Of a DNA stretch of 64,000 bases, positions 5,309 through 21,799 are shown piece by piece. The stretch is taken from NCBI GenBank assembly GCA_027490755.1, contig JAIXXL010000003.1:62001-126000 (forward strand), read 5' to 3'. The notes beneath the pieces are model-generated. The model made no database searches. It was given only the letters and a program-made list of their open reading frames with translations, and was not told where the DNA came from. Every line of letters starts with the position of its first letter. Position 1 is the stretch's first letter. Made by a program: the position numbers and the translations under genes. The DNA comes from Betaproteobacteria bacterium. Its GTDB lineage: Bacteria; Pseudomonadota; Gammaproteobacteria; Burkholderiales; UBA3065.

Positions 5309-6661
5309 CTACTTGCCGCCAGGCGTGGTGAGGTAGGTCGCCAGCGAATCGTCCAGCGCCTCGAGCCAGGGCGTGTGGTGCGGGATCGCCATCGACCCGG
5401 TCATCACCGAGCGGTAGCACTTGTTGCGGTAGCCCATGATGTCCTCGGCCTTGTCGTGCTTCCACTGCAGGAAGGTCTCGTTGACGGCGTTGATGTCGAA
5501 GGTCGGGTAGTCGGTGGCCTCGATCAGCTGCCGGATGTACTCGCCCTGGTACTCGTACATCTCCTTGGCGGTCTCGAGTTTCAGTTCTTCCTCGCGCCAG
5601 CGCAGGTCCTCAGCGTGCATGGTGTCGTAGTCGGGCAACTTGATGCGGCCCAGCACCACGTCGCGTGCGTACCAAGCCTGCGCGTCGAACATGTTGAAGC
5701 TGTACCACTGGTCCTGCATGCCGACGTACATCATCTTCGGGTTCTTCTCCCAGAAGATGCCCTTGTAGAGGTCGAGCGGCCAGAGACGGTTGTTGGTCTT
5801 CAGGCGCAGGTCTTCGTCGATGTAGGGGAAGTGGTGCAGGTAGCCGGTGCACAGGATGATCGCGTCGATCTCCTTGCTGGTGCCGTCCTGGAAGAACACC
5901 CGCTTGCCCTCGACGTGGGTCATGTTGGGTTTCTCTTCCCAGTTCGCCGGCCAGTCGTAGCCCATCGGGTTGGTGCGGTAGCAACTGGTGATCGAGCGGG
6001 CGCCGTACTTGTAGCACTGCGAGCCGATGTCCTCGGCCGAGTAGCTGGCGCCGACGATCAGTACGTCCTTGTCCTTGAATTCCAGCGCGTCACGGAAATC
6101 GTGCGCGTGCAGCACGCGGCCGCCAAAGTGCGAGAAGCCGGGGAATTCGGGCACGTTCGGGATCGAGAAGTGGCCGGTCGCCACCACCACGTAGTCGAAC
6201 TCTTCGGAGTAGGTCAGGTTCTCGCTGTGATCGTGCACCGTGACGGTGAACTTGCCGGTCGACTGGTCGTACGAGACCCCGCGCGCCGGCGAGTTGAAGC
6301 GGATGTACTGGCGCACGCCAGCCTTCTCGACGCGGCCCTTGATGTAGTCGAACAGGACTTCGCGTGGCGGGTAGGAGCCCATCGGCCGGCCGAAATGCTC
6401 GTCGAAGGTGTAGTCGGCGAATTCCAGACACTCCTTGGGGCCGTTCGACCACAGGTAGCGGTACATGCTGCCGTGTACCGGCTCGCCGTGCTCGTCCAGG
6501 CCGGTGCGCCAGGTGTAGTTCCACAGGCCGCCCCAGTCGGTCTGCTTCTCGAAGCAGACCAGTTCGGGGATGTCGGCGCCCTTCTGGGCGGCAGACTGAA
6601 AAGCCCTGAGTTGTGCCAGACCGCTGGGTCCGGCTCCAAGGATCGCGACGCGTTTCTTCAT
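5309..6661 (-). CDS. tmm: Trimethylamine monooxygenase (flavin-containing, Tmm)
   Basis: 450 residues, the usual length of bacterial Tmm. An N-terminal FAD-binding GAGPSG is at residues 9-14, a class B flavoprotein monooxygenase tract beginning [11 protein letters not shown] at 179, an NADPH-binding VGASYSAED at 203-211, and a CTGY motif at 271. Tmm uses NADPH and oxygen to convert trimethylamine to TMAO; many homologues also oxidise other small tertiary amines and sulfides. Start ATG 6661 is preceded by GAGGAG eight bases away. The TMAO produced is the substrate of tdm immediately downstream. Two GGGRTTACTCCC repeats lie 77-139 bases upstream. Confidence 0.93.
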
Positions 6662-6886: not shown

Positions 6887-6952
6887 TAGTACCGTGCAGT
6901 GCCTTTCTTTCTATGGGGCGGTTCGCGCCGCCCGAACATACCGGGGTATGGC

Positions 6953-8638
6953 ATGAGTGACGTTGCAGCAGGGAGCGCCGGCGGTCTGGCTGGCGGGGGA
7001 AGCAACACGCTTCAGCGCAAGATCGACTGGACTGGAGCCTTCTGGGTCGCCAGCGGGGTGCCGGCGCTGGTGCTGTTCTCGATCGGCGCCATTGCGGCCA
7101 CGGTGGGCAAACCGTCGTGGCTGGTGTGGACGCTGTCGATCAGCTTCGGCTTTATCCAGGCCTTTACCTACGCCGAGATCGCCGGGTTGTTCCCGCACAA
7201 GTCCGGGGGGGCCTCGGTCTATGGGGCGGTCGCCTGGGTGCGCTACAGCAAGTTCATCGCGCCCATATCCGTGTGGTGCAACTGGTTCGCCTGGTCGCCG
7301 GTGCTGGCCATCGGCTCGGGCCTTGCCAGTGGCTACATCCTCGGGGCGCTGTTCCCGGCCGATGCAGCGATAAATACCTGGCAGATCACCTTGATGGACC
7401 TCAGCTTCATCAAGGCTGGCTTGCTGTTGCGCATCAATTCCACCTTCGTTCTGGGCACCGTGATCCTGCTCGGTGTTTTCGCTGTGCAGCACGGCGGCAT
7501 CCTGCGCTCGGCGCGCACCACCATGATCCTCGGCATCACCGCGCTGATCCCGCTGATGCTGATCGCGCTGGTGCCGCTGCTCGGTGGCGGCCTGCCGACA
7601 GAACACTTCTCGCCGATGGTGCCGATCGCTCATGACGCCGCCGGAAACGTGATCGACGGCGAGTGGAACATGGCCGGCATCACGCTGATGGCTGGTGGCT
7701 TGTTTATCGCGGCGTGGTCGACCTACGGCTTCGAGACCGCGGTCTGCTACACCCGTGAGTTCCGCGATCCCAAGCGCGACACCTTCAAGGCGATCCTTTT
7801 CTGCGGCCTGTTGTGCATCGTCGTCTTCACGCTGGTGCCGTTGGCATTTCAGGGCCACCTCGGCCTCGGCAAGGTGGTGACCGCGGCGGTGCTGGATGAC
7901 GCTGGCGCAGTCGTGACCCCGGCTGTCTACGACGGCATGCTCGCGCCAGACATCTACAGCGGCATGGGCGTGGCAAGTGCGATGTCGCAGATGGTCGGTG
8001 GGGGCGAGGTGGTGGCCAACGTGCTGGTCGTCATGCTCGTGCTGGCCGTGCTGCTGTCGATCATGACGTCGATGTCGGGTTCTTCGCGCACCCTGTACCA
8101 GGCCTCGGCTGACGGATGGCTGCCGCGCTACCTCTCGCATGTGAACGAACACGGCGCACCGACCCGTGCCATGTGGACCGACCTCGGCTTCAACCTGATC
8201 CTGCTACTGCTGTCGGACTATGTGTTCGTCCTGGCGGCTTCCAACGTCGGCTACATCATCTTCAACTTCCTAAACCTGAACTCCGGCTGGATCCACCGCA
8301 TGGACCGTCCGAACTGGGTGCGGCCGTTCCGTGCACCGACCATCGTCCTTGCCATCGGCGCGCTGTTGAGCTTCGTCAACCTCATCCTGATGGGTCTGGG
8401 GGCCGACATCTACGGCGCTGGCACGCTGACCGCGGGGCTGGTGTTTGCAGCGCTGATCGTCCCGGTGTTCCTGTACCGGCACTATGTGCAGGACAAGGGC
8501 ATCTTCCCGGCGACCATGGTCGAAGACATGCACATGGGTGACGACGATGGCGCCAAGCGCGCCGGCGTGCTGCCCTACCTGGTGCTGGCAGCGGGCGTGG
8601 TCGTGGTAATCGTTGCGAACAGCATGGCCGTCTACTAG
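6953..8638 (+). CDS. APC-superfamily permease, paralogue 1 of 3
   Basis: 561 residues, a hydrophobic polytopic protein of the amino acid-polyamine-organocation type, with about 12 membrane segments expected. The N-terminal tract FWVASGVPALVLFSIG, the central FETAVCYTREF and the tract SSRTLYQAS..GWLPRYLSHVNEHGAPTRAMW are nearly repeated in the genes at 16319 and 18199, making the three clear paralogues. It is divergent from tmm across a 291-base regulatory gap and ends in a strong terminator. A methylated amine or its glutamate conjugate is a reasonable cargo from context, but APC specificity cannot be read from sequence. ATG 6953 is chosen because the frame upstream is proline/arginine-rich and not membrane-like; the ribosome site is weak. 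Confidence 0.8.
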   Translation: MSDVAAGSAGGLAGGGSNTLQRKIDWTGAFWVASGVPALVLFSIGAIAATVGKPSWLVWTLSISFGFIQAFTYAEIAGLFPHKSGGASVYGAVAWVRYSKFIAPISVWCNWFAWSPVLAIGSGLASGYILGALFPADAAINTWQITLMDLSFIKAGLLLRINSTFVLGTVILLGVFAVQHGGILRSARTTMILGITALIPLMLIALVPLLGGGLPTEHFSPMVPIAHDAAGNVIDGEWNMAGITLMAGGLFIAAWSTYGFETAVCYTREFRDPKRDTFKAILFCGLLCIVVFTLVPLAFQGHLGLGKVVTAAVLDDAGAVVTPAVYDGMLAPDIYSGMGVASAMSQMVGGGEVVANVLVVMLVLAVLLSIMTSMSGSSRTLYQASADGWLPRYLSHVNEHGAPTRAMWTDLGFNLILLLLSDYVFVLAASNVGYIIFNFLNLNSGWIHRMDRPNWVRPFRAPTIVLAIGALLSFVNLILMGLGADIYGAGTLTAGLVFAALIVPVFLYRHYVQDKGIFPATMVEDMHMGDDDGAKRAGVLPYLVLAAGVVVVIVANSMAVY

Positions 8639-8691: not shown

Positions 8692-8725
8692 CGTGCGGGG
8701 CTGCACCGAGCCCCTGGAGGACGCT

Positions 8726-9277
8726 GTGAGTACCTTGCGCCAACTTGTCACCCATTTCGGCAGGCCAGGCCGGGTGGACGCCATCCTGCTGCGCCCGGCG
8801 CGTGGCCAGCGAGCGGTGCTGGCCGATCGTGCCGAGGCACGGGTGGGGCTGGGTCTGGTTGGCGATCGCTCGGCGGCGGCCCGGCAGGCCGACCCCAAGC
8901 GGCGGCGTCAGGTCACGCTGATCCAGGCCGAGCACCTCGCCGTGGTCGCAGCACTGCTTGGCAAGACCGGCATAGACCCAGCTGGGTTGCGGCGCAATCT
9001 GGTGGTTTCGGGGGTGAACCTGATCGCGACACGCTCTCTGCTCAAGGGGCAGGTTCTGTGCCTGGTATTCGGCAACGACCCCGGCGCAGCAGACACTGCC
9101 ATGTTCGAGGTGAGCGGCAACTGCGATCCCTGTTCTGCCATGGAGGCCGAGCTCGGCTTCGGTGGCTACAACGCCATGCGCGGGCATGGTGGCGTGACCG
9201 CGCGCGTGGTCCGCGAGGGCTGGATCGAGAGTGGCATGCCGGTGTGGGTGGTGGAGAGGCCCGAAGGCGAGGGCTGA
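8726..9277 (+). CDS. MOSC domain protein
   Basis: 183 residues with the MOSC fold signature: GLVGDR near the start of the domain, RRNLVVSG in the middle, and GNCDPCSAMEAEL with the conserved cysteine towards the end. MOSC proteins handle molybdenum-cofactor-bound sulfur or, in YiiM/YcbX types, help reduce N-hydroxylated compounds. A small single-domain MOSC beside N-oxide chemistry is suggestive, but its substrate is unknown. GTG 8726 is preceded by CTGGAGG at ideal spacing, which decides the start. It is probably a separate unit, with a terminator before it and a 113-base gap after it. Confidence 0.8.
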   Translation: MSTLRQLVTHFGRPGRVDAILLRPARGQRAVLADRAEARVGLGLVGDRSAAARQADPKRRRQVTLIQAEHLAVVAALLGKTGIDPAGLRRNLVVSGVNLIATRSLLKGQVLCLVFGNDPGAADTAMFEVSGNCDPCSAMEAELGFGGYNAMRGHGGVTARVVREGWIESGMPVWVVERPEGEG

Positions 9278-9313
9278 GAACGGCTTTTGTCGGTGCCGCC
9301 CATGCTGCGCGTC

Positions 9314-9336
9314 AGGGTGCACCGGCGTTGCACCCT
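9314..9336. promoter_or_regulatory. Perfect inverted repeat before the FAD oxidase gene
   Basis: AGGGTGCA and TGCACCCT flank a 7-base centre. The repeat overlaps a possible -35 TTGCAC (9328-9333) with a weak -10 about 17 bases on. It may be a regulator site for the oxidase-ridA pair; a hairpin terminator is less likely without a T-run. Confidence 0.4.
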
Positions 9337-9390
9337 GTGCAATTAGGTTGTACGTTGAGCAATCACTGGCAGACCACGCACGCAAACCAC

Positions 9391-10734
9391 ATGTCATCCA
9401 CCGGCCTACTCCTGTCGACGCTCTGCAAGGGCCTGCTCGATGGCCCCGACGGAGCGATGGCGAACCGGCCTTACTGGTGGGATGCCGCCCCGCCTCAGGC
9501 CGACCTGTTCGACTTGCCGCGCCAGATCGACGTTGCCGTTGTCGGCTCCGGGTTCACCGGGCTGTCTGCCGCACTCGCCCTGCTGCGCCGAGGCCGCAGC
9601 GTCGCCGTCTTTGATCGTGGCGTCCCCGGCTTTGGCGCCAGTACCCGCAATGGCGGGCAGGTTGGCAGCGGCAACCAGAAGTTCCGGGTACGCAGTCTCA
9701 TCGAGATGCGCGGAGAGGCCAAGGCTGTCGCCCTGCTGCGCGAGGGTGTCGCCATGCTCGACCACATCGAGCAGCTGGTCGCTGGCGAGGGGATCGACTG
9801 CCACTTCTCGCGCTGCGGACGTTTCCGCGGCGCGATGCGGCCCGAGCACTACGATTCGATGGCGCGCGACCTGGACGACCTGCGGCGCCATGTCGGTGTG
9901 GAGTCGATCGTGGTGCCGCGTGCCGAGCAACACCGCGAGATCGCCAGTGATCTGTTCCACGGCGGTACTGTCTTGCCGCACGATGCGGCTGTTCACCCAG
10001 GCCTGTACCACGCTGGCCTGCTGCGCCGGGTCCGCGAAGCCGGTGGCGTGATCCTCGGGCTGACGCCGGTTGACTCGAGCGCCGCACAAGGTGCCGGCTT
10101 CAGCGTCAGGACCCCTCGCGGTGAGGTGATGGCGCGAGACGTCATCGTTGCCACCAACGGCTACACGCAGAACATGCACAGCCACCTCGACCAGCGCATC
10201 GTGCCGGTGGGTTCGGCGGTGATCGCGACCGAGCCGCTGGCGCCCGGGCTCATTCAGCAGCTGATGCCGGGCCGACGGATGTACGGCAACACCAACCGGG
10301 TCTTCTCTTATTTCCGGGCGGCGCCGGATCAGGACCGGATCGTCTGGGGCGGTCGGGTAGGGCGTGGGTTCGCGCCGGATTCGCCGTTCGCCTTCGCGCA
10401 TCTGGCCCGCGACCTGCGCAGGACTTTCCCGCAGCTGGGCGACGTGCGCATCACCCACGGCTGGAGCGGACAGATCGGCTACACCTTCGACAGCCTGCCG
10501 CACCTGGGCAAGACACCCGACGGCATCCACTACGCCATGGGCTACTGTGGGACGGGCGTATCCCGGTCGACATGGTTCGGGCACAAGATCGCGCTCAAGC
10601 TGCTGGGTGACGCCGAGGGTGCTACGGCTTTCGACGACATCGCCTTCCCGACCCATCCGTTCCATGCGCTGGCTCCGAGCATGGTCCCGGCCTATGAGGC
10701 CTGGTACCGGATGCGTGATGCCCTCGATTTCTGA
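9391..10734 (+). CDS. FAD-dependent amine oxidase, DadA/PuuB (gamma-glutamylputrescine oxidase) type
   Basis: 447 residues. A dinucleotide-binding GSGFTG sits about 50 residues from the start within DVAVVGSGFTGLSAALALLRR, followed by the STRNGGQVGSGN tract typical of PuuB- and sarcosine-oxidase-like flavoproteins. A C-terminal GYCGTGVSRSTWFG completes the FAD site. These enzymes oxidise secondary or primary amines to imines, yielding an aldehyde and peroxide. The gene is 24 bases before ridA, whose product hydrolyses reactive enamines/imines, so the pairing is chemically sensible. An N-methylated amino acid or gamma-glutamyl-alkylamide is a guess at the substrate. ATG 9391 lacks a good ribosome site; ATG 9457 is the alternative. 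Confidence 0.75.
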   Translation: MSSTGLLLSTLCKGLLDGPDGAMANRPYWWDAAPPQADLFDLPRQIDVAVVGSGFTGLSAALALLRRGRSVAVFDRGVPGFGASTRNGGQVGSGNQKFRVRSLIEMRGEAKAVALLREGVAMLDHIEQLVAGEGIDCHFSRCGRFRGAMRPEHYDSMARDLDDLRRHVGVESIVVPRAEQHREIASDLFHGGTVLPHDAAVHPGLYHAGLLRRVREAGGVILGLTPVDSSAAQGAGFSVRTPRGEVMARDVIVATNGYTQNMHSHLDQRIVPVGSAVIATEPLAPGLIQQLMPGRRMYGNTNRVFSYFRAAPDQDRIVWGGRVGRGFAPDSPFAFAHLARDLRRTFPQLGDVRITHGWSGQIGYTFDSLPHLGKTPDGIHYAMGYCGTGVSRSTWFGHKIALKLLGDAEGATAFDDIAFPTHPFHALAPSMVPAYEAWYRMRDALDF

Positions 10735-10758
10735 GCCAAGAATCAAACCGGAGGATCC

Positions 10759-11148
10759 ATGAGCAAGTCGACACGCCAGAACATCTCGTCGGGTGGCGCC
10801 TATGAGGCCGTATTCGGATACTCCCGCGCGGTGAGGGTGGATCGCCATATCCACGTCTCGGGCACCTGCGCGCCCGCTGGCCACGAGAAGAGCGATGCCA
10901 AGACCCAGACTCTTGCTGCGCTCGACATCATCGGCCGTGCGCTCAAGGAGGCTGGTGCCGATTGGTCGGACGTTGTACGCACCGTGGTTTACGTGAAGGA
11001 CATGAATGAGGCCGAGAACGTCGCCGAGGCGCACGTGAGCATCTTTGGCGATATCCGTCCGGCCAGCACGCTGGTCCAGGTGGATAGCTTCATGCGGGTC
11101 TGGCAGAAGGTCGAGATCGAGGCCTACGCCATCCTCCCGGCTGGCTGA
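10759..11148 (+). CDS. RidA family enamine/imine deaminase
   Basis: 129 residues, full RidA/YjgF/UK114 length. It has the conserved Arg100 in the tract GDIRPAS and the VEIEA tract (119-122). RidA proteins hydrolyse reactive enamine/imine intermediates to the keto compound and ammonia. It follows the FAD oxidase by 24 bases with a GGAGG ribosome site, so both are cotranscribed and the oxidase product is the likely substrate. Confidence 0.88.
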   Translation: MSKSTRQNISSGGAYEAVFGYSRAVRVDRHIHVSGTCAPAGHEKSDAKTQTLAALDIIGRALKEAGADWSDVVRTVVYVKDMNEAENVAEAHVSIFGDIRPASTLVQVDSFMRVWQKVEIEAYAILPAG

Positions 11149-11176
11149 GCTCACGGCGCCCCCGCATGGTGAACGC

Positions 11177-11204
11177 TTGCATTCCGTCACGTGACGGGTA
11201 TCAT
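11177..11204 (+). promoter_or_regulatory. Promoter of the cupin-dmm2 operon with a 14-base perfect palindrome in its spacer
   Basis: TTGCAT (-35, 11177-11182) and TATCAT (-10, 11199-11204) are separated by 16 bases. The perfect palindrome CCGTCACGTGACGG (11184-11197) fills the spacer, the classic place for repressor occlusion. The same palindrome with one changed base recurs at 16239-16252. The TetR gene at 14351-15049 lies between them. Confidence 0.6.
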
Positions 11205-11293
11205 GGTCCCGGAGCCGCTGCGATGCCCGACAGGTGGTTTTCGCATCGTGGCGTGCCCAGCCAATACAACCGCAACTTCAGGAGGGGGTCACG

Positions 11294-11644
11294 ATGAAGG
11301 TTTACAAGCGCGGCATGCCGACCGAGGGGCTCGCACCGGCAGGGTTTCTTCGGGCAGCCAACGCAAAGATCTACGGTGCCGAACCCAAGGATTCCATCCG
11401 CATCGACTCTGGCAGCCTCGAGGGCCCGTATGCGGTTGGTGTCTGGTCCGTCGAGAAAGGTGAGTTCGACCTGCCCTACGGGGGTACGGAGTTCGTCACG
11501 ATCCTCGAAGGCCGCGTGGTGGTGACACACGGTGGCCAGAGCCATGAACTTGGCCCCGGCGATACCTTCTTCACGCCGAAGGGCGAGACCGTTCACTGGA
11601 AAGTTCTCGAGAACCTCAAGAAGGCCTTCATCGTCATCTTATGA
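11294..11644 (+). CDS. Small single-domain cupin protein
   Basis: 116 residues forming one cupin barrel, with a glycine-rich GGTEFVTILEGRVVVTHGG stretch and a second motif PGDTFFTPKGETVHWKV. It resembles the DUF861/EutQ-like cupins. The role is unknown; possibilities are a metal-dependent hydrolase or isomerase acting on the amine-derived product, or a ligand-binding accessory. Start ATG 11294 follows AGGAGGGGG at ideal spacing. It is the first gene of the second dmm operon (about 100 bases before dmmA2) and is absent from the first dmm cluster. Confidence 0.8.
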   Translation: MKVYKRGMPTEGLAPAGFLRAANAKIYGAEPKDSIRIDSGSLEGPYAVGVWSVEKGEFDLPYGGTEFVTILEGRVVVTHGGQSHELGPGDTFFTPKGETVHWKVLENLKKAFIVIL

Positions 11645-11749
11645 CGAGTGCCAGCGGGCACTTCTGGTGGAGTGCCCGTCGGAGCCGTCGGTGTCTGGAC
11701 AAGAGGCCGGCGGCTAGCAGATGGTTTCAGAGAAGAACGGTTGGTGAAC

Positions 11750-12352
11750 ATGCTGATCACTGGCATCAAAAGCAGACCCATATACGACACCCTGCATCCA
11801 CTCCCCAGGGCCTGCCGCCACATCGTTGCCGCGCAGGGCACCGGTGGCGAGGCGGTGATGAGGCTGCTCGAACCCATGGGCGGTCTGCGCAGCAGCGTCG
11901 AGTTGCTCTATTCATCCGAGTCATTCAGCGGCAACGACCTCAGCGATCGCCTCAAAGGCCTCGATTGCGGCAGCGCGGAGTTCTTTCCCGCCAATGATGA
12001 TCTGGTCCGGCGCCTGTCTTCCCTCCTGGCCTCGGCAAAGATCGGTACCGCCTTGTATCTGGCTGGCTCGGAGACGTTCATCGGCCGTGCGATGCAAGTC
12101 GCCACCGATCACGACCTGCGCAGCGACCAGGTTCTGCGGGAGCACTGCGGTACGCTCGCCCGCCGCGTGATCTGCATGCACTGCGGCGAGTACAACGAGG
12201 ACATCGCGAAACGCGTATTCCGCTGCCAGGCGTGCCGTGAGCACCTCGTGGTACGCGACCACTATTCAAGGCACTGGGCTGCATTCATGGGCGTCAAGGC
12301 AGATGCCGAGACCCCAGGGACCATCCCCCCCAACGAGGATCTCGACACATGA
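11750..12352 (+). CDS. Dimethylamine monooxygenase subunit DmmA family protein, copy 2
   Basis: 200 residues, clearly homologous to the 1214-1804 protein. Two CxxC pairs (Cys142/145 and Cys159/162) are followed by VVRDHYSR and DAETPG. The N-terminal half is much more diverged, so this is an old duplication or a separate acquisition, not a recent copy. The frame stays open upstream to 11648. ATG 11750, or GTG 11744 six bases earlier, is favoured because copy 1 also begins near this point and the upstream residues look random. The stop overlaps the reductase start (ATGA). Confidence 0.72.
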   Translation: MLITGIKSRPIYDTLHPLPRACRHIVAAQGTGGEAVMRLLEPMGGLRSSVELLYSSESFSGNDLSDRLKGLDCGSAEFFPANDDLVRRLSSLLASAKIGTALYLAGSETFIGRAMQVATDHDLRSDQVLREHCGTLARRVICMHCGEYNEDIAKRVFRCQACREHLVVRDHYSRHWAAFMGVKADAETPGTIPPNEDLDT

Positions 12353-13314
12353 GGGCCAAGCACGGGACTTTTGCGGTCGTTGTCGATGCCATCGAGAGCG
12401 TTACGCCGCTCATCAAGACCTTTCGCCTCGTCGATCCTGATGGCGAGCCGCTGCCGGGCTTCTCGGGCGGGAGCCATGTCATCGTCATCGTCGGCGATGG
12501 GGAGAGGGTCTACCGGAATCCCTACTCGCTGATCGGCTCGCCTTTTGATACGCGTTCGTATGAGATCGCGGTGGGGTTCGACGCCAACGGGCGGGGTGGA
12601 TCGGCGACGATGCACCATCGGGTGAAGGTGGGGGACCGCCTGGAGATCACCTACCCGGCCAACCAGTTTCCGCTCGACAGACTCGCCAAGAAGCATGTCC
12701 TTATCGCGGGTGGTGTCGGTATCACTCCGTTCCTTGCGCACCTGCATGAGCTCGCGGTGGCCACTACGCCGTTCGAGCTGCATTACGGTGTCCGTAGCCA
12801 AGCCCACGCGGGTCTTGTCGGGCGCATCGCACCAGACTTGCGAAAGCATTCGCGCATCTATCCTAGCGACGAACTAGGGCGTCCTGACTTCGCCTCGATC
12901 CTTTCCGGGCAGCCGGTGGGAGCCCATGTCTACATCTGTGGCCCTCGGGGCATGCTCGACGCCGCGAGGGCAGAGGCTGAACGCGCCGGGTGGCCTGATA
13001 GCCATATCCACTTTGAGCTGTTCGATCAGCAGACCACTGGTCAGCCCTTCAGCGTTTTCTTGGCCGCCAGTGACATGCAGGTCGATGTGCCGCCAGAGAT
13101 GAGCCTCCTTGAGGCTGCCGAGGCGAAGGGCATCTCGATCCCCTACCTCTGTCGCGGCGGTGCTTGCGGGTACTGTGAGACCGAGGTGATCGCATGCGAG
13201 GGTGAACTTATCCACCGCGATATCTGGCTCTCGGCCGCAGATCGGCAGGCGAACAAGAAATTCATGCCCTGCGTTTCGCGGGCGCTCTGCAGCAAACTCA
13301 TCCTCAACGCGTGA
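12349..13314 (+). CDS. Dimethylamine-monooxygenase-type reductase (FMN/NAD/2Fe-2S), copy 2
   Basis: 321 residues with the same architecture as copy 1. RNPYSL is at 56-61, AGGVGITP at 120-127 and CGP at 197, with a C-terminal 2Fe-2S domain having Cys268, Cys273, Cys276 and Cys308. It should feed electrons from NAD(P)H to the haem subunit 4 bases downstream. Overlap with dmmA2 implies coupled translation. It keeps all cofactor residues, so this copy is functional rather than a relic. Partner choice and substrate are inferred from operon position. Confidence 0.85.
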   Translation: MRAKHGTFAVVVDAIESVTPLIKTFRLVDPDGEPLPGFSGGSHVIVIVGDGERVYRNPYSLIGSPFDTRSYEIAVGFDANGRGGSATMHHRVKVGDRLEITYPANQFPLDRLAKKHVLIAGGVGITPFLAHLHELAVATTPFELHYGVRSQAHAGLVGRIAPDLRKHSRIYPSDELGRPDFASILSGQPVGAHVYICGPRGMLDAARAEAERAGWPDSHIHFELFDQQTTGQPFSVFLAASDMQVDVPPEMSLLEAAEAKGISIPYLCRGGACGYCETEVIACEGELIHRDIWLSAADRQANKKFMPCVSRALCSKLILNA

Positions 13315-13318
13315 CGCC

Positions 13319-14332
13319 ATGACCATCAACTTCAAGACGGACGAGTCCTACCGCGAGCCGTTCAATTTCTACAACAGTGCCGCATCCATCCGGCGCTTCC
13401 CGTTCCCGTTCAAATCGGACGAGTTCAACTACACCACCAACCTGGAGCCTCACGTTCCTGGCGACGGCATCTTCGAGAACCTTCTCGACATCGATGAGCA
13501 TTACATCGGCGAGATGCAGGAGCGACGGGCGATGCTCCGTGACAACCCGGACCAGCACTTCGTCTCGTTGCCGCAATCCATCCCGTCTCAGTGGGAGTTT
13601 CTCGAACTCATCATGGAGTCCTACTCGCAGGACTTCCCGGAGTACTTCTCGCTCAAGCGGGATGGTCCGCGATGGACCTGGATCAACCGCATCCTCGGCA
13701 TCGAAGACACCTTCACCTTCGGTGATGTGAGGTCGCTTCGGGAGGAACCACTCAAGTACATCGGCATGCAGGCCCAGGGTGACTGGATCCTCCTGGAGGA
13801 GCGGGACGGGAACCTGTTCTGGTCGGCTGGGCTTGCCACATCAAGGGCCGGTTACTCGCTCAAGTTCAACATCGGGATGAACTTCACCGAGTTCCACGGC
13901 CCCGTGCCGCTGGCGCACGAGTCTGGTGTGTTCGATCGCGCCATGAAATTCCTGATTCGGCTCAAGCCGGGCCACCCCTTCCGCCGAACGAACTGGAACC
14001 TGACTGTCCACCCGCGCCACGACATCTCGGTTGAAGCGACCCCCCGCTGGGCGAACGACTGGAGCCACGTCACCCGCGAGAACGTTGGGGAGATCGTGCA
14101 CCTGCGGATCGAGGTGCAGCCACTGTTCCGACTTCCCCGCACCAACGCCATCGCGTTCCCGGTCCGCACATATTTCGCGACGCTGCAGGAGATCGCGACC
14201 AACCGGGACTGGGCCAGACGTTTGCACCGCGTGGTCAAGACCTGCCCGCAGGACATCGTCGATTACAAGGGTTTCACGAGGTTCCAGCACCTCGTCGTCG
14301 ACTACCTCGCGGTCTTTGACGACAGCAACTGA
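13319..14332 (+). CDS. Haem-dependent oxidative N-demethylase (DUF3445), complete copy 2
   Basis: 337 residues, a full-length DUF3445 protein. RRFPFPF is at 25-31 and DIDEHY at 57-62, and conserved histidine/arginine-rich tracts lie later (e.g. HPRHDISVEATPRW). The family uses haem and oxygen to remove a methyl group from small secondary amines as formaldehyde. Compared with the truncated copy at 1-239 the two share motifs but differ at most positions in the first 78 residues, so substrate preference may differ. It is the last gene of the cupin-dmmA-reductase-DUF3445 operon and converges on the tetR gene with an 18-base gap. Confidence 0.85.
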   Translation: MTINFKTDESYREPFNFYNSAASIRRFPFPFKSDEFNYTTNLEPHVPGDGIFENLLDIDEHYIGEMQERRAMLRDNPDQHFVSLPQSIPSQWEFLELIMESYSQDFPEYFSLKRDGPRWTWINRILGIEDTFTFGDVRSLREEPLKYIGMQAQGDWILLEERDGNLFWSAGLATSRAGYSLKFNIGMNFTEFHGPVPLAHESGVFDRAMKFLIRLKPGHPFRRTNWNLTVHPRHDISVEATPRWANDWSHVTRENVGEIVHLRIEVQPLFRLPRTNAIAFPVRTYFATLQEIATNRDWARRLHRVVKTCPQDIVDYKGFTRFQHLVVDYLAVFDDSN

Positions 14333-14350
14333 GCGTGTGCTAGCGGGCCA

Positions 14351-15049
14351 TCAGGCCGTACGCGAGCCGCTCACCTCGCCCTCCACGTGGCTTGCGGGGG
14401 GCATGCCGTTGCGGCTGAATCCGGCGATGTCGCAGATGGTGTCGGTCACCGAAGCTCTCAGGCCCTCATATTGGGGGTGTTTGGGCTTGCCGTGCCCCAT
14501 GATGAGGAGCAACCCCTCTATGAGCATGCCGATAATCGCAGCGCGATGCGATACCTTGGCCATGGGGAGCTTTGGTTCGATCGAGCGGATCATCTCTTCG
14601 ATGCTGGCCAGGTGACGCAGGTAGAAGATGTCGAGTACTTCGGCGACTTCAGGGTCGTGGCTGGCCAGCGCCCATAGTTCCGGGAACAATCTTGCGGTGA
14701 AGGGTTGCTTGAGGTCGTCGAGCAGGTACTCGATCATGACTCGGAACTTCTCTTCCGAAGTCTGCGCGCCCAATTTGGCGAACAGCACCTGATAGGGATG
14801 GAAGTAGTAGTTCTCGATGGTGTAGTTGACGACGTCGATGAGCAGCTGCTTTTTGGTCGGGAAGTAGTACTGCAGTGACTTCAGATGCATGCCCGCGCGC
14901 GTCGCTGTGGCTCGCAGAGAGAACTTGTAATAGCCGTCATCGGCGATGATGTGCCGGGCGGCCTCCAATATGGAGATCTCGGTATCCGACCAATGCGGGT
15001 CATCGCCCCCTGCGGGACGCGTCACCTTGCCTTTGGATCTCGGGGGCAT
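14351..15049 (-). CDS. TetR-family transcriptional regulator
   Basis: 232 residues. An N-terminal helix-turn-helix at about 40-75 contains LRATATRAGM and LQYYFPTKKQLL, the standard TetR recognition layout. A helical C-terminal ligand domain follows (about 80-210). It is the best candidate for the CCGTCACGTGACGG palindromes at 11184 and 16239, which bracket the gene; TetR proteins bind such operators as dimers and release them on ligand binding. A separate inverted repeat, GGCACT...GGTGCC at 15065-15084, lies just upstream of its own start. The ligand may be a methylated amine, by context only. Confidence 0.85.
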   Translation of the reverse strand: MPPRSKGKVTRPAGGDDPHWSDTEISILEAARHIIADDGYYKFSLRATATRAGMHLKSLQYYFPTKKQLLIDVVNYTIENYYFHPYQVLFAKLGAQTSEEKFRVMIEYLLDDLKQPFTARLFPELWALASHDPEVAEVLDIFYLRHLASIEEMIRSIEPKLPMAKVSHRAAIIGMLIEGLLLIMGHGKPKHPQYEGLRASVTDTICDIAGFSRNGMPPASHVEGEVSGSRTA

Positions 15050-15221
15050 GGGGTCTGTTTTCTCGGCACTTACCGGAGGGTGCCATCACATCGGGCAGGA
15101 TAGCGATGATACCGCCTTGGGACTGGGCATCACGCCTAGCAGCTCCCTGTCTTGCCGGCGACCACTCAGCGAGAAGCGCGCTCGGCCGTCGCGGTTTTGC
15201 CGATCGATACGACCAGACAAT

Positions 15222-15249
15222 AAAGATGGCAGCTTGCGCTGCCATCTTT
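15222..15249. terminator. Hairpin terminator downstream of the TorF-type porin
   Basis: A perfect 12-base-pair stem AAAGATGGCAGC / GCTGCCATCTTT with a 4-base loop, 26 bases after the porin stop. In the porin direction the stem ends in ATCTTTATTGT, giving a short U-rich tail. It may also stop leftward read-through into tetR. Confidence 0.75.
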
Positions 15250-15274
15250 AACCGAGAGTCTGAACCTGAATGGT

Positions 15275-16084
15275 TTAGAACACCCGCTTAACCATCACTT
15301 GGTAATGAAGGTCTTGGTAAGACTCCGCAACTCCAGTTGCTTGGTTTCGCAGGAATCCGTAATCCGTAAGGAAGTCTTTCCTTTGGGCGTCGACGGCGAT
15401 TCCGGCTGCGCTAAGTTGCCACCCACCCTCGAAAGCCTTGGTCACGCCGAAGCGAAAGTCAGAAAAGCTCGACCCAACTATGTTGTTAACGTTTTGGTGG
15501 CCGGCGTGAAGGTTGAGTGTCCAACTCGGAAGAAACTCGTAGTTGACGTTCGCTTCGATATATCCGGAATTCTTCGTGTCTTTGAGGCCAAAGTAATCCG
15601 TCACAGTGTGAGAGTACTTGACGTTCAGGATTTCCCAAGTAAGCGAAAGGTAAAGTTCCGTGGTGTTGGCGGAGGAGCCCACCGAGTCACCGGTGCCAAA
15701 GTCCGCACCGAGCGGCAACTTGCTGCCCGGGAACAGGAACTGCAGCACACCGACGTCGGCGGTGATCGGGCCTATCGCCTGCGCGTAGCCGCCGTAGACG
15801 TCGATCTCAACAGTGGCATCAGGTACCGCGTCCTTGTCGACGTTACTACCCCACACGCCGGCGTAGAAGCCGCTCGCGTGGGCGACGTCAAAACCACCTT
15901 GAACCGCAGGCTTTTCGCGCGTGTAGTTGAGGCCACGGAAGAAGTAGGCATTCGTTAGACCGATATTACTGGTCACAGTCCATGTCGGCGTCTCCGCCTT
16001 CGCGGGTCCCTCTGCGGCGATGACGGGTGTGGCGAACGGTAGTGCGATTATCGCTGTGCCTAAAAATCTGATTCCCTTGAACAT
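15275..16084 (-). CDS. TorF/TIGR02001-family putative outer-membrane porin
   Basis: 269 residues. A signal peptide (positively charged start, hydrophobic core about 8-22, cleavage near VIAAEG) is followed by alternating polar/hydrophobic beta strands, ending in ...MVKRVF with a C-terminal phenylalanine, the usual outer-membrane barrel ending. The tracts NIGLTNAYFFRGLNYTREKPAVQGG and DVYGGYA match the Gcw_chp/TorF family. Start 16084 is set by AGGGGGAG upstream. It is less GC-rich than its neighbours. In this island it may admit methylated amines or TMAO through the outer membrane; substrate not shown. Confidence 0.82.
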   Translation of the reverse strand: MFKGIRFLGTAIIALPFATPVIAAEGPAKAETPTWTVTSNIGLTNAYFFRGLNYTREKPAVQGGFDVAHASGFYAGVWGSNVDKDAVPDATVEIDVYGGYAQAIGPITADVGVLQFLFPGSKLPLGADFGTGDSVGSSANTTELYLSLTWEILNVKYSHTVTDYFGLKDTKNSGYIEANVNYEFLPSWTLNLHAGHQNVNNIVGSSFSDFRFGVTKAFEGGWQLSAAGIAVDAQRKDFLTDYGFLRNQATGVAESYQDLHYQVMVKRVF

Positions 16085-16238
16085 GTCTCCCCCTGAAAAG
16101 TGTGCATCGCCCGGAAGGGCGTTGTCGTAAACAGCCACATCCTCGTTCTGTCCTTAGGGGCTGCCTATCTGCTCAAAGGAGGTCGGCAGGTGGTGAACTG
16201 GAAACATTCCCAAACACAAAACGATTCGGCTATTCTAA

Positions 16239-16252
16239 CCGTCAGGTGACGG
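16239..16252. promoter_or_regulatory. Second copy of the TetR-type palindrome, between porin and permease 2
   Basis: CCGTCAGGTGACGG matches 13/14 bases of the perfect palindrome at 11184-11197. It lies 66 bases before permease 2 and 154 bases before the porin start. A TAGAAT (minus strand, 16232-16237) abuts it and could be the porin -10. Binding could couple permease, porin and the second dmm operon. Confidence 0.55.
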
Positions 16253-16318
16253 GTTCTGGGGTGCTTCGTTGCCTGGAATGGTTGATGCGCGCACTCCGCA
16301 TAAAAGCTGGAGGATGTG

Positions 16319-18109
16319 ATGTCGAGTCACCAAGGTTCGATCGCAGGCTCGCAAGAGGGGGGCGCGGGCGCTCAGTTGCACAGGGCGCTTGATTGGCGAG
16401 GGGCATTCTGGATCGCGAGCGGTGTGCCCGCGCTCGTGTTGTTCTCCATCGGCGGGATCGCCGGTACCACGGGCAATGTGGCCTTCATGATCTGGACGGT
16501 CTCCATGATCATCGGTCTCTTCATGTCGTTCACGTTTGCCGAGCTCGCGGGGCTGTTCCCTAACAAGTCTGGCGGGGCGTCGGTCTACGGCGCGGCAGCT
16601 TGGGTCAAGTACTCCAAACTGGTTGCACCGCTGACTGTCTGGTGCAACTGGGTCGCCTGGACCCCGGCGATCGCGCTTGGCTGTTCCATCGCAGCAGCCT
16701 ACGTGCTGAACGCCGTCGTACCCATGGCTGCACCCGATTCGCCAGAGGTTCTCGCCTGGGTGCAGGCGAATGCGTCGAGCATCGCACCCGATTCGGCAAG
16801 AGTGACCGAGTGGCTGGCTGCCAACGCCGGCAAGACGCCGGATGATGCGATCGGTGCGCTATTGGTCTTGGATGGTGTAAGCGCCCTGAGTCCCGCCATC
16901 CGAGGCTGGAGCCTTTTTTCCGCGCAGTTGGGGCCGGTGCATGTGTCGCTCAATGCCACCTTCTTCATAGGCGCGGCATTGCTCCTGATCGCATTCCTCA
17001 TCCAGGATCGAGGTGTGTTGAGCACGGCGCGCGTGCAAAAAGCGATCGGCTTGGTGGTCGTGGTGCCGATGGCTGTGGTCGCCCTGGTCCCCATCTTGAC
17101 CGGCCAGATCACCTGGGACCATTTCTCGCCCTTCGTTCCTCTGGCTGTTCCCTACGTCCCCGGCGCTGGTGAGTGGAATATCGGCGGATGGACCTTGGTG
17201 CTGGGCGGGATGTTCATTGCGGCTTGGTCCACTTATGGATTTGAGACCGCGGTCTGTTACACCCGCGAGTTCAAGAACCCGGCTTCGGATACGCCAAAGG
17301 CCATCTTCTACTCCGGCCTGTTGTGTCTCGCGCTCTTCTCGTTGGTGCCGTTCACGTTCCAGGGCGTGCTTGGACTCGAGGGGATGCTCGCGCCGGCGAT
17401 CGTCGACGGATCGGGTGTGGCCGAGGCCATGGGCAAGATGCTTGGCGGCAATATCATCATCACCAACATCTTTGTGGTTCTGATGATCCTTGCCTTGATG
17501 TGCTTCCTGATGACCGCGATGGCCGGCTCATCGAGGACGCTCTATCAGGCTTCGACCGATGGCTGGTTGCCGCGCTACCTCAGCCACGTCAACGAGCACG
17601 GCGCACCGACCAGGGCGATGTGGACCGACTTCGTGGTCAACCTTCTCATCCTCTCCATTGCGTCGGCGGATGCGACGAGCTTTTTCTTCATCCTCGCCGT
17701 TTCAAACGTCTGCTACCTGCTCTGCACGTTCCTCTACATGAACGCGGGCTGGATCCACCGCATCGACAGCGGTCACATCCAGAGGCCCTACAAGGCACCT
17801 ACCATCATGTTGGCACTGGGTGTCGTCCTGGCCTTCATCAACATCGGTCTGGTGGGGGCGGGTGCCAAGGTGTGGAACCCGGTAGCGCTATGGGCGGGGC
17901 TGACGACCGCGGCGTTGATCATCCCGGTGTTCCTCTACCGCCACTACGTGCAGGATGGGGGGGTATTTCCCCGGCACATGCTCGAGGACCTGAACCTCGA
18001 CGAGAACTACGCGTCTTCGCGAAAGGCGGGTGTATTGCCGTACATCACTCTGCTGGCTGGGCTGGCGGTCATGCTTGCGGCGAACTGGTTCTTTACTTTG
18101 CCGGCTTGA
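16319..18109 (+). CDS. APC-superfamily permease, paralogue 2 of 3
   Basis: 596 residues, the longest of the three paralogous permeases. Compared with paralogue 1 it has an extra hydrophilic segment of about 60 residues (roughly 125-185, rich in Ala, Ser and Asp) between early membrane segments, also present in shorter form in paralogue 3. It shares FETAVCYTREF, SSRTLYQAS and FLYRHYVQD with its relatives. ATG 16319 is chosen over GTG 16316 because GGAGG (16309-16313) has better spacing to it. A CCGTCAGGTGACGG site lies 66 bases upstream. Cargo is unknown. Confidence 0.8.
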   Translation: MSSHQGSIAGSQEGGAGAQLHRALDWRGAFWIASGVPALVLFSIGGIAGTTGNVAFMIWTVSMIIGLFMSFTFAELAGLFPNKSGGASVYGAAAWVKYSKLVAPLTVWCNWVAWTPAIALGCSIAAAYVLNAVVPMAAPDSPEVLAWVQANASSIAPDSARVTEWLAANAGKTPDDAIGALLVLDGVSALSPAIRGWSLFSAQLGPVHVSLNATFFIGAALLLIAFLIQDRGVLSTARVQKAIGLVVVVPMAVVALVPILTGQITWDHFSPFVPLAVPYVPGAGEWNIGGWTLVLGGMFIAAWSTYGFETAVCYTREFKNPASDTPKAIFYSGLLCLALFSLVPFTFQGVLGLEGMLAPAIVDGSGVAEAMGKMLGGNIIITNIFVVLMILALMCFLMTAMAGSSRTLYQASTDGWLPRYLSHVNEHGAPTRAMWTDFVVNLLILSIASADATSFFFILAVSNVCYLLCTFLYMNAGWIHRIDSGHIQRPYKAPTIMLALGVVLAFINIGLVGAGAKVWNPVALWAGLTTAALIIPVFLYRHYVQDGGVFPRHMLEDLNLDENYASSRKAGVLPYITLLAGLAVMLAANWFFTLPA

Positions 18110-18145
18110 CGGCATCGGCCGGGGCGCCCCGCGCCCCCTTCAAGT

Positions 18146-18178
18146 AGATCGGCCCGCTCTTGCGGGCCGATCTCTTTT
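18146..18178 (+). terminator. Rho-independent terminator after permease 2
   Basis: A 12-base-pair perfect stem AGATCGGCCCGC / GCGGGCCGATCT with a TCTT loop, followed by CTTTT. It lies between two convergent permease genes and may serve both. Confidence 0.88.
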
Positions 18179-18198
18179 CGAGTGAGGAACAGGATTTG

Positions 18199-19929
18199 TC
18201 AGGGGGCCGGCAGCTGGAAGTAGCTGTCGGCCACCAGAACGACCACCAGACCGGCCGCCAACGCCAGGTAGGGCAGGAAGCCGGCCTTGCGCTCGCCCAG
18301 CGACCCACGGCTGATGCCGAGGTCCTCGAGCATGCGGTCCGGGAACATGCCCTTGTCCTGCACGTAGTGGCGGAACACGAACACCGGGATGATGAGCAGC
18401 GCAAAGCCGACCCCGTACATCAGTGCATTGGGGTTGCCCCAGACCTTGGCGCCAGCACCCATCAGCGCCAGGTTGACGAAGCCCAGCAGGGCCCCAAGCA
18501 CCAGCAGCGCGGTCGGCGCCCGGTAGGGCCGCTCTGCGTTCGGGCTGTCGATGCGGTGGATCCAGGTCGACTGCAGGTTGAGGAAGATGAAGATCATGTA
18601 CCCGACATTCGAGACCGACAGGACCAGGTAGTAAGCCGTGGCGTCGGAGGCTGCGATGGTCAGCAGACCGAGATTGAAGACAAGGTCGGTCCACATCGCA
18701 CGGGTCGGGGCGCCGTGCTCGTTCACGTGGCTGAGGTAGCGCGGCAGCCAGCCATCCACCGAGCCCTGGTAGAGCGTCCGCGACGACCCGGCCATGGCCA
18801 TCATGATGGCGAGCATCAGCGCGAGGATCATCATCATCTCGAGCAGATGGACAACGAAACCGGACCCGCCGCCGACCATCTCGCCCATGGCTTGGGCCAC
18901 GCCGGTGCCATCGACGATGCCCGGAGCGGTCATGCCCTCCACGCCCAGGTGGCCCTGGAACGCCGCGGCGACAAGGCAGTACAGCACGACGCAGACCACC
19001 CCCGACCAGAGGATGGCCTTGAAGGTGTCGGTTGCCGGGTTCTTGAACTCGCGGGTGTAGCAGACCGCCGTCTCGAACGCGTAGGTGGACCAGCCGGCGA
19101 TGAACAGGGCGCCAAGGAAGACGGTCCAGCCGCCGTTATCCCAGGCCCCGCCGGGTGGCACCAGGGGCGAGAAGTTGCTGGCCGCGACACCGCCATTGAA
19201 GAAAGGCGCGATACCCACGATCGCCATCGGGATCAGCACGATCAGGCCGATGTACATCTGGATCTTGGCGGTGCCCAGTACGCCGCGATGCTGGATGGCG
19301 AAGGCCACCAGCATGAGGATCGCACCGATGAAGAAGGTGGCGCCGATCTCGACCTGCACCACACCGAACAGCGAGAAGCTGGCCACTTTGAAGGCGCGGA
19401 TCCATGGGGTGCCGGCCTCGGTGAGTGCGGCAACGGCGAGCTTGGCAGCCTCTTCAGGCGTCTGACCGGCGATCGCTGCCGCGTTGGCAGCATCTGCGAT
19501 CCACGCCTGGACTGCCGGGGATGCCGGGTCGATGACCGGCAGGGGCGCGACGGCGTTCAGGATGTAACCGGCAGCGATGGCGCAACCCAGCGACAGCACC
19601 GGTGTCCAGGCGTACCAGTTGCACCACACGGATAGGGGCGCGATGAACTTGCTGTAGCGCAACCACGCGGCAGCGCCGTAAACGGCCGCGCCGCCGGATT
19701 TGTTCTTGAACAGGCCGGCGATCTCGGCATAGCTGAAGGACTGTATGAAGCCCATCAGCACCGAGATGGTCCAGGCGACGAAGGCCAACTTGCCGGCCGT
19801 CGCGCCCATGCCGCCGATCGAGATAAGGACCAGCGCCGGGACGCCGCTGGCGATCCAGAAAGCGCCCTTCCAATCGATGGTGCGAAGCAATCCTTGCTGC
19901 CCTGAACCGCTATTCGTGGCTTGCGTCAT
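18199..19929 (-). CDS. APC-superfamily permease, paralogue 3 of 3
   Basis: 576 residues, a polytopic membrane protein with the same core tracts as the other two (FWIASGVPALVLISIGG, FETAVCYTREF, SSRTLYQGS). Start ATG 19929 has AAGGGGGGG just upstream. It is convergent with permease 2 and divergent from an XRE-cupin regulator across a 184-base AT-rich gap, so that regulator is its likely controller. A partial GGGTTACT on the minus strand near 19987-19994 faintly echoes the tmm motif. Cargo unknown; an amine or amine-derived amino acid is plausible. Confidence 0.8.
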   Translation of the reverse strand: MTQATNSGSGQQGLLRTIDWKGAFWIASGVPALVLISIGGMGATAGKLAFVAWTISVLMGFIQSFSYAEIAGLFKNKSGGAAVYGAAAWLRYSKFIAPLSVWCNWYAWTPVLSLGCAIAAGYILNAVAPLPVIDPASPAVQAWIADAANAAAIAGQTPEEAAKLAVAALTEAGTPWIRAFKVASFSLFGVVQVEIGATFFIGAILMLVAFAIQHRGVLGTAKIQMYIGLIVLIPMAIVGIAPFFNGGVAASNFSPLVPPGGAWDNGGWTVFLGALFIAGWSTYAFETAVCYTREFKNPATDTFKAILWSGVVCVVLYCLVAAAFQGHLGVEGMTAPGIVDGTGVAQAMGEMVGGGSGFVVHLLEMMMILALMLAIMMAMAGSSRTLYQGSVDGWLPRYLSHVNEHGAPTRAMWTDLVFNLGLLTIAASDATAYYLVLSVSNVGYMIFIFLNLQSTWIHRIDSPNAERPYRAPTALLVLGALLGFVNLALMGAGAKVWGNPNALMYGVGFALLIIPVFVFRHYVQDKGMFPDRMLEDLGISRGSLGERKAGFLPYLALAAGLVVVLVADSYFQLPAP

Positions 19930-20098
19930 GACCCCCCCTTGTCCAAGTGAAGCGCTGCGAAGCCCAAGCTTGAGCCCACTCGGAAAAGTAACCCAGAGTT
20001 TGCAAGATGTGCAACGAGCTTGCGTCTGAGTAAACTTATTAGAGATAACGCAAATCAGATGATGGCGACGATGCTAATGTAGCCCAGATAAAGCATAC

Positions 20099-20120
20099 TA
20101 ATCATCTATAATAATGATTA
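20099..20120. promoter_or_regulatory. AT-rich inverted repeat and TATAAT over the regulator start
   Basis: TAATCAT and ATGATTA flank CTATAATA, overlapping the ATG at 20114. A perfect TATAAT is at 20107-20112, only one base before that ATG. Either the repeat is an autoregulatory operator or the true start codon is downstream (GTG 20141). Confidence 0.45.
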
Positions 20121-20755
20121 ATATATCTACTTCCGAGGGCGTGAGGGCGGATGACGATGCCGAGTCCGCCGGGCTGGGCACGCCGGTGATCCCGATCGAG
20201 CAGAAGATCGGCGCCGTGATCCGTCAGCAGCGCCTCGCCAACGGACTCACGCTCAGCGATGTCGCCTCCGGAGCCGGCCTGTCGCGGGGCATGCTCAGCC
20301 GTGTCGAGACCGGACGGGCGACCGCCAGCCTGGAGAAGCTGGAGCGCATCTGCCTCGCGCTTGGCATCAGCATGTCGGACGTCTTCCGTAGCATCGAGGG
20401 CAAGAGCGGTTTCGCCCAGCACATCAAGCGTAAGGACCACATGGAGGTGGTGCGCAGTGGCACCCGCCACGGACACGCTTACAAGCTCCTGTCATACGAG
20501 CGCGGTCCGAAGAAAGCGTTCGAGCCCTTCCTGATCGAGATGGACAAGTACAGCGATGTCTACCCGCGCTTCCACCACCCCGGTACCGAATTCCTCTACA
20601 TGCTCTCAGGCCGCATGAAGTACCGTCTCGGCGAGCACACCTACCTGCTCGAGCCCGGCGACACGCTGACCTTTTCCGGCGAGATCGAGCACGGGCCGGA
20701 GGCGCTGCTCGATGAGAAAGTGCAGTTCCTGGCGATCATGGTCTACGGCGACTAG
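20114..20755 (+). CDS. XRE-family regulator with C-terminal cupin domain
   Basis: 213 residues. A helix-turn-helix of the Cro/CI type lies at about 30-85 (IRQQRLANGLTLSDVASGAG, then SRVETGRATASLEKL), then a cupin sensor domain at about 130-213 with HHPGTEFLYMLSG and EPGDTLTFSGEIEHG. This is the PuuR-like architecture, where the cupin binds a small amine or amino-acid ligand and controls catabolic genes. It is divergent from permease 3. The first 28 residues before the HTH are not typical, and GTG 20141 is an alternative start. Confidence 0.85.
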   Translation: MINISTSEGVRADDDAESAGLGTPVIPIEQKIGAVIRQQRLANGLTLSDVASGAGLSRGMLSRVETGRATASLEKLERICLALGISMSDVFRSIEGKSGFAQHIKRKDHMEVVRSGTRHGHAYKLLSYERGPKKAFEPFLIEMDKYSDVYPRFHHPGTEFLYMLSGRMKYRLGEHTYLLEPGDTLTFSGEIEHGPEALLDEKVQFLAIMVYGD

Positions 20756-20760
20756 GGGCT

Positions 20761-21495
20761 CTAGCCGCCTTTCAAACCGGTGGCCCAGTGGCGGTAGATG
20801 TGATCGGTCAGCTGCCGCATGCGCGGCAGCCGTTCGGCGGTAAGCCCGAGCACCTGTCCAGCGGTCTGCACGCCACCCGGGCGCGGCCCGGCCAGTGCCT
20901 CCGCCACCTCCGGCGCGCCACCCTCGCACCACGTGGCGATGGTCGGCTCGTCCATCTCGATGTGGCACTGCATGCCGATGCTGGGGCCGATGGCGAACAT
21001 CTGGTTGTCGCAGAGGGTGCTGCTGGCCAGGCGCGTGGCGCCGGGCGGCAAGCTGAAGGTCTCGCCGTGCCACTGGAAGACGTCGAATGCGGTGGCCTCA
21101 CCCAGCCATGCTCGGGCCTCAGCGTTGGGCTCGGGCTGGATGTGGTGCCAGCCGATCTCCTTGGTCGGCTCGCCATCGCGGGTGTTGGTCCCCACCGTCC
21201 CGCCCAGCGCGCGGCTGAGCAACTGGCCCCCCAGACAGTGGCCGATCACCGGGATGCCACTGGCCTGGGCCTGGCGGATGAGCTCGAGCAGCGCTTCGAT
21301 CCACGGCAGCGGGTCGTTGACGCTCATCGGGCCGCCCATCATGCCGATGCCGCTGAAGCCTTCGGGCGAGGCTGGCACCGGCTCGCCGCGGTCGATACGC
21401 ACCTCGGTCCAGGCTATGCCCTGACTGGTCAGCCACTCGGCGAAGAATGCCGGGCCTTCGGAGGGCGCAAAGCGAAAGATGACGACGGGCTTCAT
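20761..21495 (-). CDS. Class I glutamine amidotransferase-like protein (GuaA-N type)
   Basis: 244 residues with an intact class I amidotransferase triad: nucleophile Cys87 in IGHCLGGQ, and His178 and Glu180 in MQCHIEMDEP. Such proteins hydrolyse the gamma-amide or gamma-glutamyl bond of glutamine or gamma-glutamyl compounds. In a methylated-amine island with a PuuR-like regulator and a PuuB-like oxidase, a gamma-glutamyl-amide hydrolase is an attractive idea but unproven. It converges on the XRE-cupin gene with a 5-base gap. ATG 21495 is favoured over the longer frame to 21564, whose extra residues are proline- and lysine-rich. Confidence 0.8.
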   Translation of the reverse strand: MKPVVIFRFAPSEGPAFFAEWLTSQGIAWTEVRIDRGEPVPASPEGFSGIGMMGGPMSVNDPLPWIEALLELIRQAQASGIPVIGHCLGGQLLSRALGGTVGTNTRDGEPTKEIGWHHIQPEPNAEARAWLGEATAFDVFQWHGETFSLPPGATRLASSTLCDNQMFAIGPSIGMQCHIEMDEPTIATWCEGGAPEVAEALAGPRPGGVQTAGQVLGLTAERLPRMRQLTDHIYRHWATGLKGG

Positions 21496-21517
21496 GGGGT
21501 CTTTCCTGTGTTGTTGT

Positions 21518-21799
21518 TCAGTTTTGCATGCCGGGCGTGGTGGCGCCGGAGTCGGCAGCGGCAAGCCACCGTCGCAGCGCCAGCGTCAGGTCCTTGCCGG
21601 AGAATCCGCAGGCCTCGCCGCTGAACCAGCGCGCGCTCTCCATACGCATCAGCAGGGCCTCGGCAGTCTCGGTCAGGTCCGCCGGCAGGGTGCCAGCCAT
21701 GTCTAGCAGGGCGCGCCGCCATTCCATGCAGAAGCGGTCGACGTCTACGCGTTCCGCCTCCAAGTCGTCGAGGGCGCTGCGCAACCGGGCGATGGACAT
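21518..21799 (-). CDS. Small conserved-looking protein of unknown function
   Basis: 93 residues, mostly helical in character (long runs of Leu/Glu/Arg/Ala), with no signal peptide or membrane segment. I do not recognise a family. ATG 21799 has AGGAGAAG upstream. It is divergent from the DUF721-like gene by 49 bases and stops 22 bases before the amidotransferase start, so the two could be cotranscribed. Confidence 0.6.
   Translation of the reverse strand: MSIARLRSALDDLEAERVDVDRFCMEWRRALLDMAGTLPADLTETAEALLMRMESARWFSGEACGFSGKDLTLALRRWLAAADSGATTPGMQN

Follow-up and report, generated by a model that had tools for sequence, protein, structure and literature searches.

The window considered here, the whole 64-kb stretch of DNA that was analysed, opens with genes of the TMA pathway, which fill its first 9.3 kb and include first-copy dmmA and reductase genes. 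They are followed by a segment of about 11.5 kb that carries a second set of dmm genes, a TetR-family regulator and two operator-like palindromes. The features bearing on the argument are these:

1842-2996, dmmD-like GcvT protein
3077-5302, TMAO demethylase
5309-6661, trimethylamine monooxygenase
6899-8638, TMAO permease (permease 1)
9278-20760, no strand, insertion of about 11.5 kb: both palindromes, TetR, cupin, dmm2, porin, permeases 2 and 3, XRE-cupin, FAD oxidoreductase, RidA
11177-11204, plus strand, putative promoter 1: TTGCAT (3/6), 16 bp, TATCAT (5/6)
11184-11197, no strand, operator-like palindrome 1 (site 1), CCGTCACGTGACGG, in the spacer of the putative cupin-dmm2 promoter, with the core GTCRNNYGAC as in sites of the TetR's relatives
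11294-11644, plus strand, Cupin_3 protein, first gene of the putative regulated operon
11750-12352, plus strand, DmmA-like subunit, second copy
12349-13314, plus strand, dimethylamine monooxygenase reductase subunit, second copy
13319-14332, plus strand, haem-dependent oxidative N-demethylase (HODM) alpha-like subunit, second copy, 47% identical to the first
14351-15049, minus strand, TetR-family regulator, 232 aa, recognition helix 56-62 (LKSLQYY), TetR_N and TetR_C_6 both over cut-off
15275-16084, minus strand, TorF-family putative porin, divergent from permease 2
16239-16252, no strand, operator-like palindrome 2 (site 2), CCGTCAGGTGACGG, between porin and permease 2
16319-18109, plus strand, TMAO permease (permease 2), putative second target, 821 bits to NF053774 (cut-off 690)
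20095-20124, no strand, AT-rich 30-bp palindrome, ATACTAATCATCTATAATAATGATTAATAT, 6-8-6 layout, overlapping the XRE-cupin start
20114-20755, plus strand, XRE-cupin regulator (HTH_3 and Cupin_2)

The 11.5 kb is an insertion relative to one genus-mate (G004, locus L062), because the counterparts of the flanking genes (8693-9277 and 20761-21564) lie just 37 bp apart there. GC content in the middle of the insertion, at 13-18 kb, is 0.57-0.61, against 0.65-0.70 outside. Four genus-mates lack such a TetR, and the same four have HODM/dmm in one copy. The Cupin_3 gene occupies the place taken by the dmmD-like GcvT gene in the first dmm copy; no dmmD for dmm2 was found within the insertion. Three TMAO permease paralogues lie within 13 kb (6899-8638, 16319-18109 and 18199-19929), all over the NF053774 cut-off. 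Upstream of the FAD oxidoreductase gene is an inverted repeat, CAGGGTGCACCGGCGTTGCACCCTG (9313-9337; 12-bp arms with one mismatch), a candidate terminator, operator or leader hairpin.

The original prediction was that a shared 14-base palindrome lies between -35 and -10 elements ahead of the second dmm operon and again between porin and permease 2, that no other copy of this quality exists in the window, and that the TetR gene sits between the two. Each of these statements agrees with the sequence: both palindromes are exactly at the coordinates given, and the TetR gene, on the minus strand, is bracketed by them, as are cupin-dmm2 and the porin gene. Site 1 occupies positions 2-15 of the 16-bp spacer from TTGCAT (11177-11182) to TATCAT (11199-11204), so the predicted geometry is right, though the -35 is weak: TATCAT matches TATAAT at five of six positions, TTGCAT matches TTGACA at only three. 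Site 2 lies 64 bp ahead of the start of permease 2 (GTG at 16316 or ATG at 16319) and 155 bp from the ATG (16084) of the divergent porin, and a weak -10-like TATTCT (16231-16236) directly precedes it. When 9 of 12 matches were required, a sigma-70 scan reported neither the promoter at site 1 nor that at site 2: promoter 1 is weak in its -35 element, promoter 2 in its -35 and its -10.

Pattern searches of the genome assembly (2.06 Mb in 49 contigs, 79% complete) gave exactly two occurrences of CCGTCANNTGACGG, both in the window, where the next best sequence has two mismatches and is located elsewhere. The random scatter that would have told against a regulon was thus not seen. Among 60 genomes, this one included, the motif is sporadic: it occurs once or twice in 12 of them, which resembles a background of chance matches. 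The single match in another genus-mate (G002) is within an ftsI-like coding region and was discarded as a chance match. Repetition itself was dropped as proof, since first-order Markov simulation of the 64-kb window yields about one identical pair of palindromes with 6-bp arms and a 2-bp spacer per 64 kb; the window itself holds 12 families of repeated-arm palindromes with spacers of 0-4. Promoter position is better evidence than the repeat, but it is silent on which protein binds, and uniqueness together with position does not settle the identity of the binder.

One way to approach that identity is through the TetR protein. Its helix-turn-helix (TetR_N, PF00440) scores 34.9 bits against a cut-off of 24, and its TetR_C_6 ligand domain 28.9 against 27. 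The predicted model (pLDDT 75) has ten helices and helices only, and its top PDB structure matches are TetR structures. The protein reaches neither the curated cut-off of the BetI equivalog (41.7 bits vs 201.3) nor that of RutR (21.6 vs 368). No close orthologue was found among 84,980 species genomes, the best having 37% identity, and a search of genome contigs for close orthologues found two distant ones only.

Distant relatives (25-37% identity), gathered from genomes and plasmids, are informative in another way: palindromes of the form T(A/T)GGTCRNNYGACC(A/T)A stand just upstream of their own genes. Between -300 and +60 of the tetR start, 8 of 34 relative loci hold 13 sites with the core GTCRNNYGAC; 127 other combinations of arm and centre average 0.8 in the same loci, and the core itself is found in none of 28 more distant TetR loci. 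When all 4-bp arms with spacers of 0-8 are ranked in the relative loci, GGTC-N4-GACC comes first. Twenty loci fetched after the hypothesis had been formed gave 8 core sites upstream of tetR where 0.56 were expected: 8 in 7.1 kb of upstream DNA vs 7 in 88.6 kb elsewhere (Poisson P ~1.5e-7). In Sinorhizobium (L057), ATTATAGGTCGCACGACCTATAAT and TAGGTCATGCGACCT lie ahead of tetR; in Oceanobacter (L046), TTGGTCACACGACCAA, TTGGTCAGTAGACCAA and TTTTGTCACATGACCAAA lie between tetR and a divergent amine-oxidase-like gene. Similar sites occur in L016, L087, L090 (two core sites near tetR), L093 and L097, and in L080 a site precedes a dioxygenase gene that is itself just upstream of tetR. In about three-quarters of the 34 relatives the surroundings of tetR lack a core site. 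The closest relative, L045 (37%), is one of these: its CTGTTCACGAACAG, 66 bp before tetR, falls within the reading frame ahead of the gene, lacks the GTC core and was not used. Neighbours of the relatives' tetR genes include amine oxidase, arginine/ornithine catabolism, dioxygenase and acyl-CoA dehydrogenase genes, which point to no particular ligand for the family.

Both window sites contain this core, and the insertion's intergenic DNA has no other match to it, even allowing one mismatch. They differ from the relatives' sites in the flanks only (CC/GG): GTC is preceded by G in 28 of the relatives' 30 half-sites and by C in all four of the window. In the recognition helix (56-62 in the model), the window TetR has Lys57-Ser58. 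Aligned relatives carry Gly, Ser, Ala or Asn at the first of these positions and mostly Asn at the second; among the proteins aligned, Lys57 is found in the window protein only. This substitution would fit altered flank recognition, as a single case. One may suppose, at a little short of even confidence, that GTCRNNYGAC, most often in the form TAGGTC-N4-GACCTA, is the operator core of a broad TetR group whose recognition helix is of the (G/S)NLQYYFPTK type. The window protein would then be a variant in which flank preference went from GG to CC together with residues 57-58 (G/A-N to K-S) on coming to control the acquired dmm/TMAO module. The window's own tetR has no operator site upstream, which suggests that the protein is not autoregulated, unlike those relatives with sites, which look autoregulated. 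A perfect hairpin between porin and tetR, AAAGATGGCAGC-TTGC-GCTGCCATCTTT (15222-15249), probably ends porin transcription and leaves tetR with its own promoter.

Taken together, these comparisons make it probable that both palindromes are operators of the TetR protein encoded at 14351-15049, which would repress cupin-dmm2 and permease 2, and maybe also the porin. TetR is preferred as binder because the window sites contain the core of its relatives' sites, unique in the insertion's intergenic DNA, and also because both sites are intergenic, unique in the genome and located in the insertion that carries tetR. The suggestion of one TetR repressor for cupin-dmm2 and uptake genes has thus gained support, from the core upstream of the relatives' own tetR and from the different palindrome of the XRE-cupin regulator. 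The uptake gene that can be named is permease 2, which passes the curated TMAO permease cut-off.

A second perspective supposes that the XRE-cupin regulator, encoded within the same insertion, binds both palindromes and represses dmm2 and permease 2. Regulators of the XRE type, 39% identical to it, do adjoin dmm/TMAO clusters of Sinorhizobium and Shinella, in stretches without a window-type TetR, and the Sinorhizobium XRE gene has a single core match, GTCAAGTGAC, upstream; but this match has no flanking symmetry beside its core, core sites are entirely absent from the Shinella dmm cluster, and the CCGTCA site is not common to the dmm clusters of these related regulators. Moreover, the XRE-cupin gene has at its start a 30-bp AT-rich palindrome that is likely to be the regulator's own operator; at its centre, 6-base arms flank 8 bases, as they do in the DbuR footprint, AATTCTCATATATTAGAATT (PMC12724383). 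No CCGTCA-type site occurs between permease 3 and the XRE gene (19930-20113). With a palindrome of its own the XRE-cupin protein is the weaker candidate, and we consider it unlikely to be the binder. Binding sequences of three Pseudomonas XRE-cupin regulators are palindromic and quite unlike one another (PMC7901475).

A regulator encoded elsewhere in the genome might instead bind the sites; AraC-type TmaR and GntR-type TmoR, which control the TMA pathway in Ruegeria pomeroyi (PMC13390433), would be examples. This is quite unlikely: the sites are confined to the insertion, with none ahead of dmm1, tmm or permease 1; genus-mates with dmm1 have no site in the TMA cluster; and the core in the window matches the sites of TetR relatives. 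Least probable of all is a functionless chance repeat of short palindromes, for which the expectation of about one same-arm pair with a 2-bp spacer per 64 kb can be cited, but against which stand the position of both sites in promoter regions of one insertion, the absence of a third copy in 2 Mb, and a match to the relatives' operator core that coincidence would produce about once in 100 (an estimate from three fixed arm bases and a purine). The dmm clusters of rhizobia and Cupriavidus (52-53% HODM identity) were set aside as comparison, since their stretches hold neither a homologue of the window's TetR nor a conserved core site.

If TetR is the binder, a dimer would block RNA polymerase at both promoters: on the 14-bp site 1 it would sit inside the spacer of the cupin-dmmABC2 promoter, and on site 2 it would cover the point where transcription of permease 2 is predicted to begin. 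The porin may share operator 2 with permease 2 and be controlled together with it. Release would follow binding of a putative metabolite, plausibly an amine or a pathway intermediate; the methylated amines named in the original prediction are a guess. Repression, not activation, suits the positions of the sites and the established behaviour of the TetR family.

Control by a TetR-type repressor at a palindromic operator is ordinary gene control. In the open-access literature searched, with its incomplete journal coverage, neither a TetR regulator acting on dmm genes nor a GTCRNNYGAC operator was found described, the motif matching unrelated papers only; the TMA pathway regulators in it are of AraC and GntR type only. 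If true, the TetR reading would identify the regulator and operators of a second dimethylamine monooxygenase, apparently acquired, and of its TMAO uptake genes. It would also supply an operator code that can be tested across a broad set of TetR proteins, which is largely uncharacterised.

Likenesses to known systems are of several kinds. Within its family the window protein is the orthologue of no named member, its BetI and RutR scores being below the cut-offs; it resembles KstR, EthR, Bacillus FadR and BetI in its N-terminal helix-turn-helix and its all-helical ligand domain, and would do so in its putative operators, palindromes lying in promoter regions. DbuR and PauR (PMC12724383, PMC7901475) are XRE-cupin repressors; the insertion encodes one such regulator, with a DbuR-like palindrome that is AT-rich and distinct from CCGTCANNTGACGG. 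TmaR and TmoR of Ruegeria pomeroyi are likewise local regulators of dmm and other TMA-pathway genes; they are of AraC and GntR type respectively, whereas the regulator in the window is of TetR type and stands beside a second dmm copy (PMC13390433).
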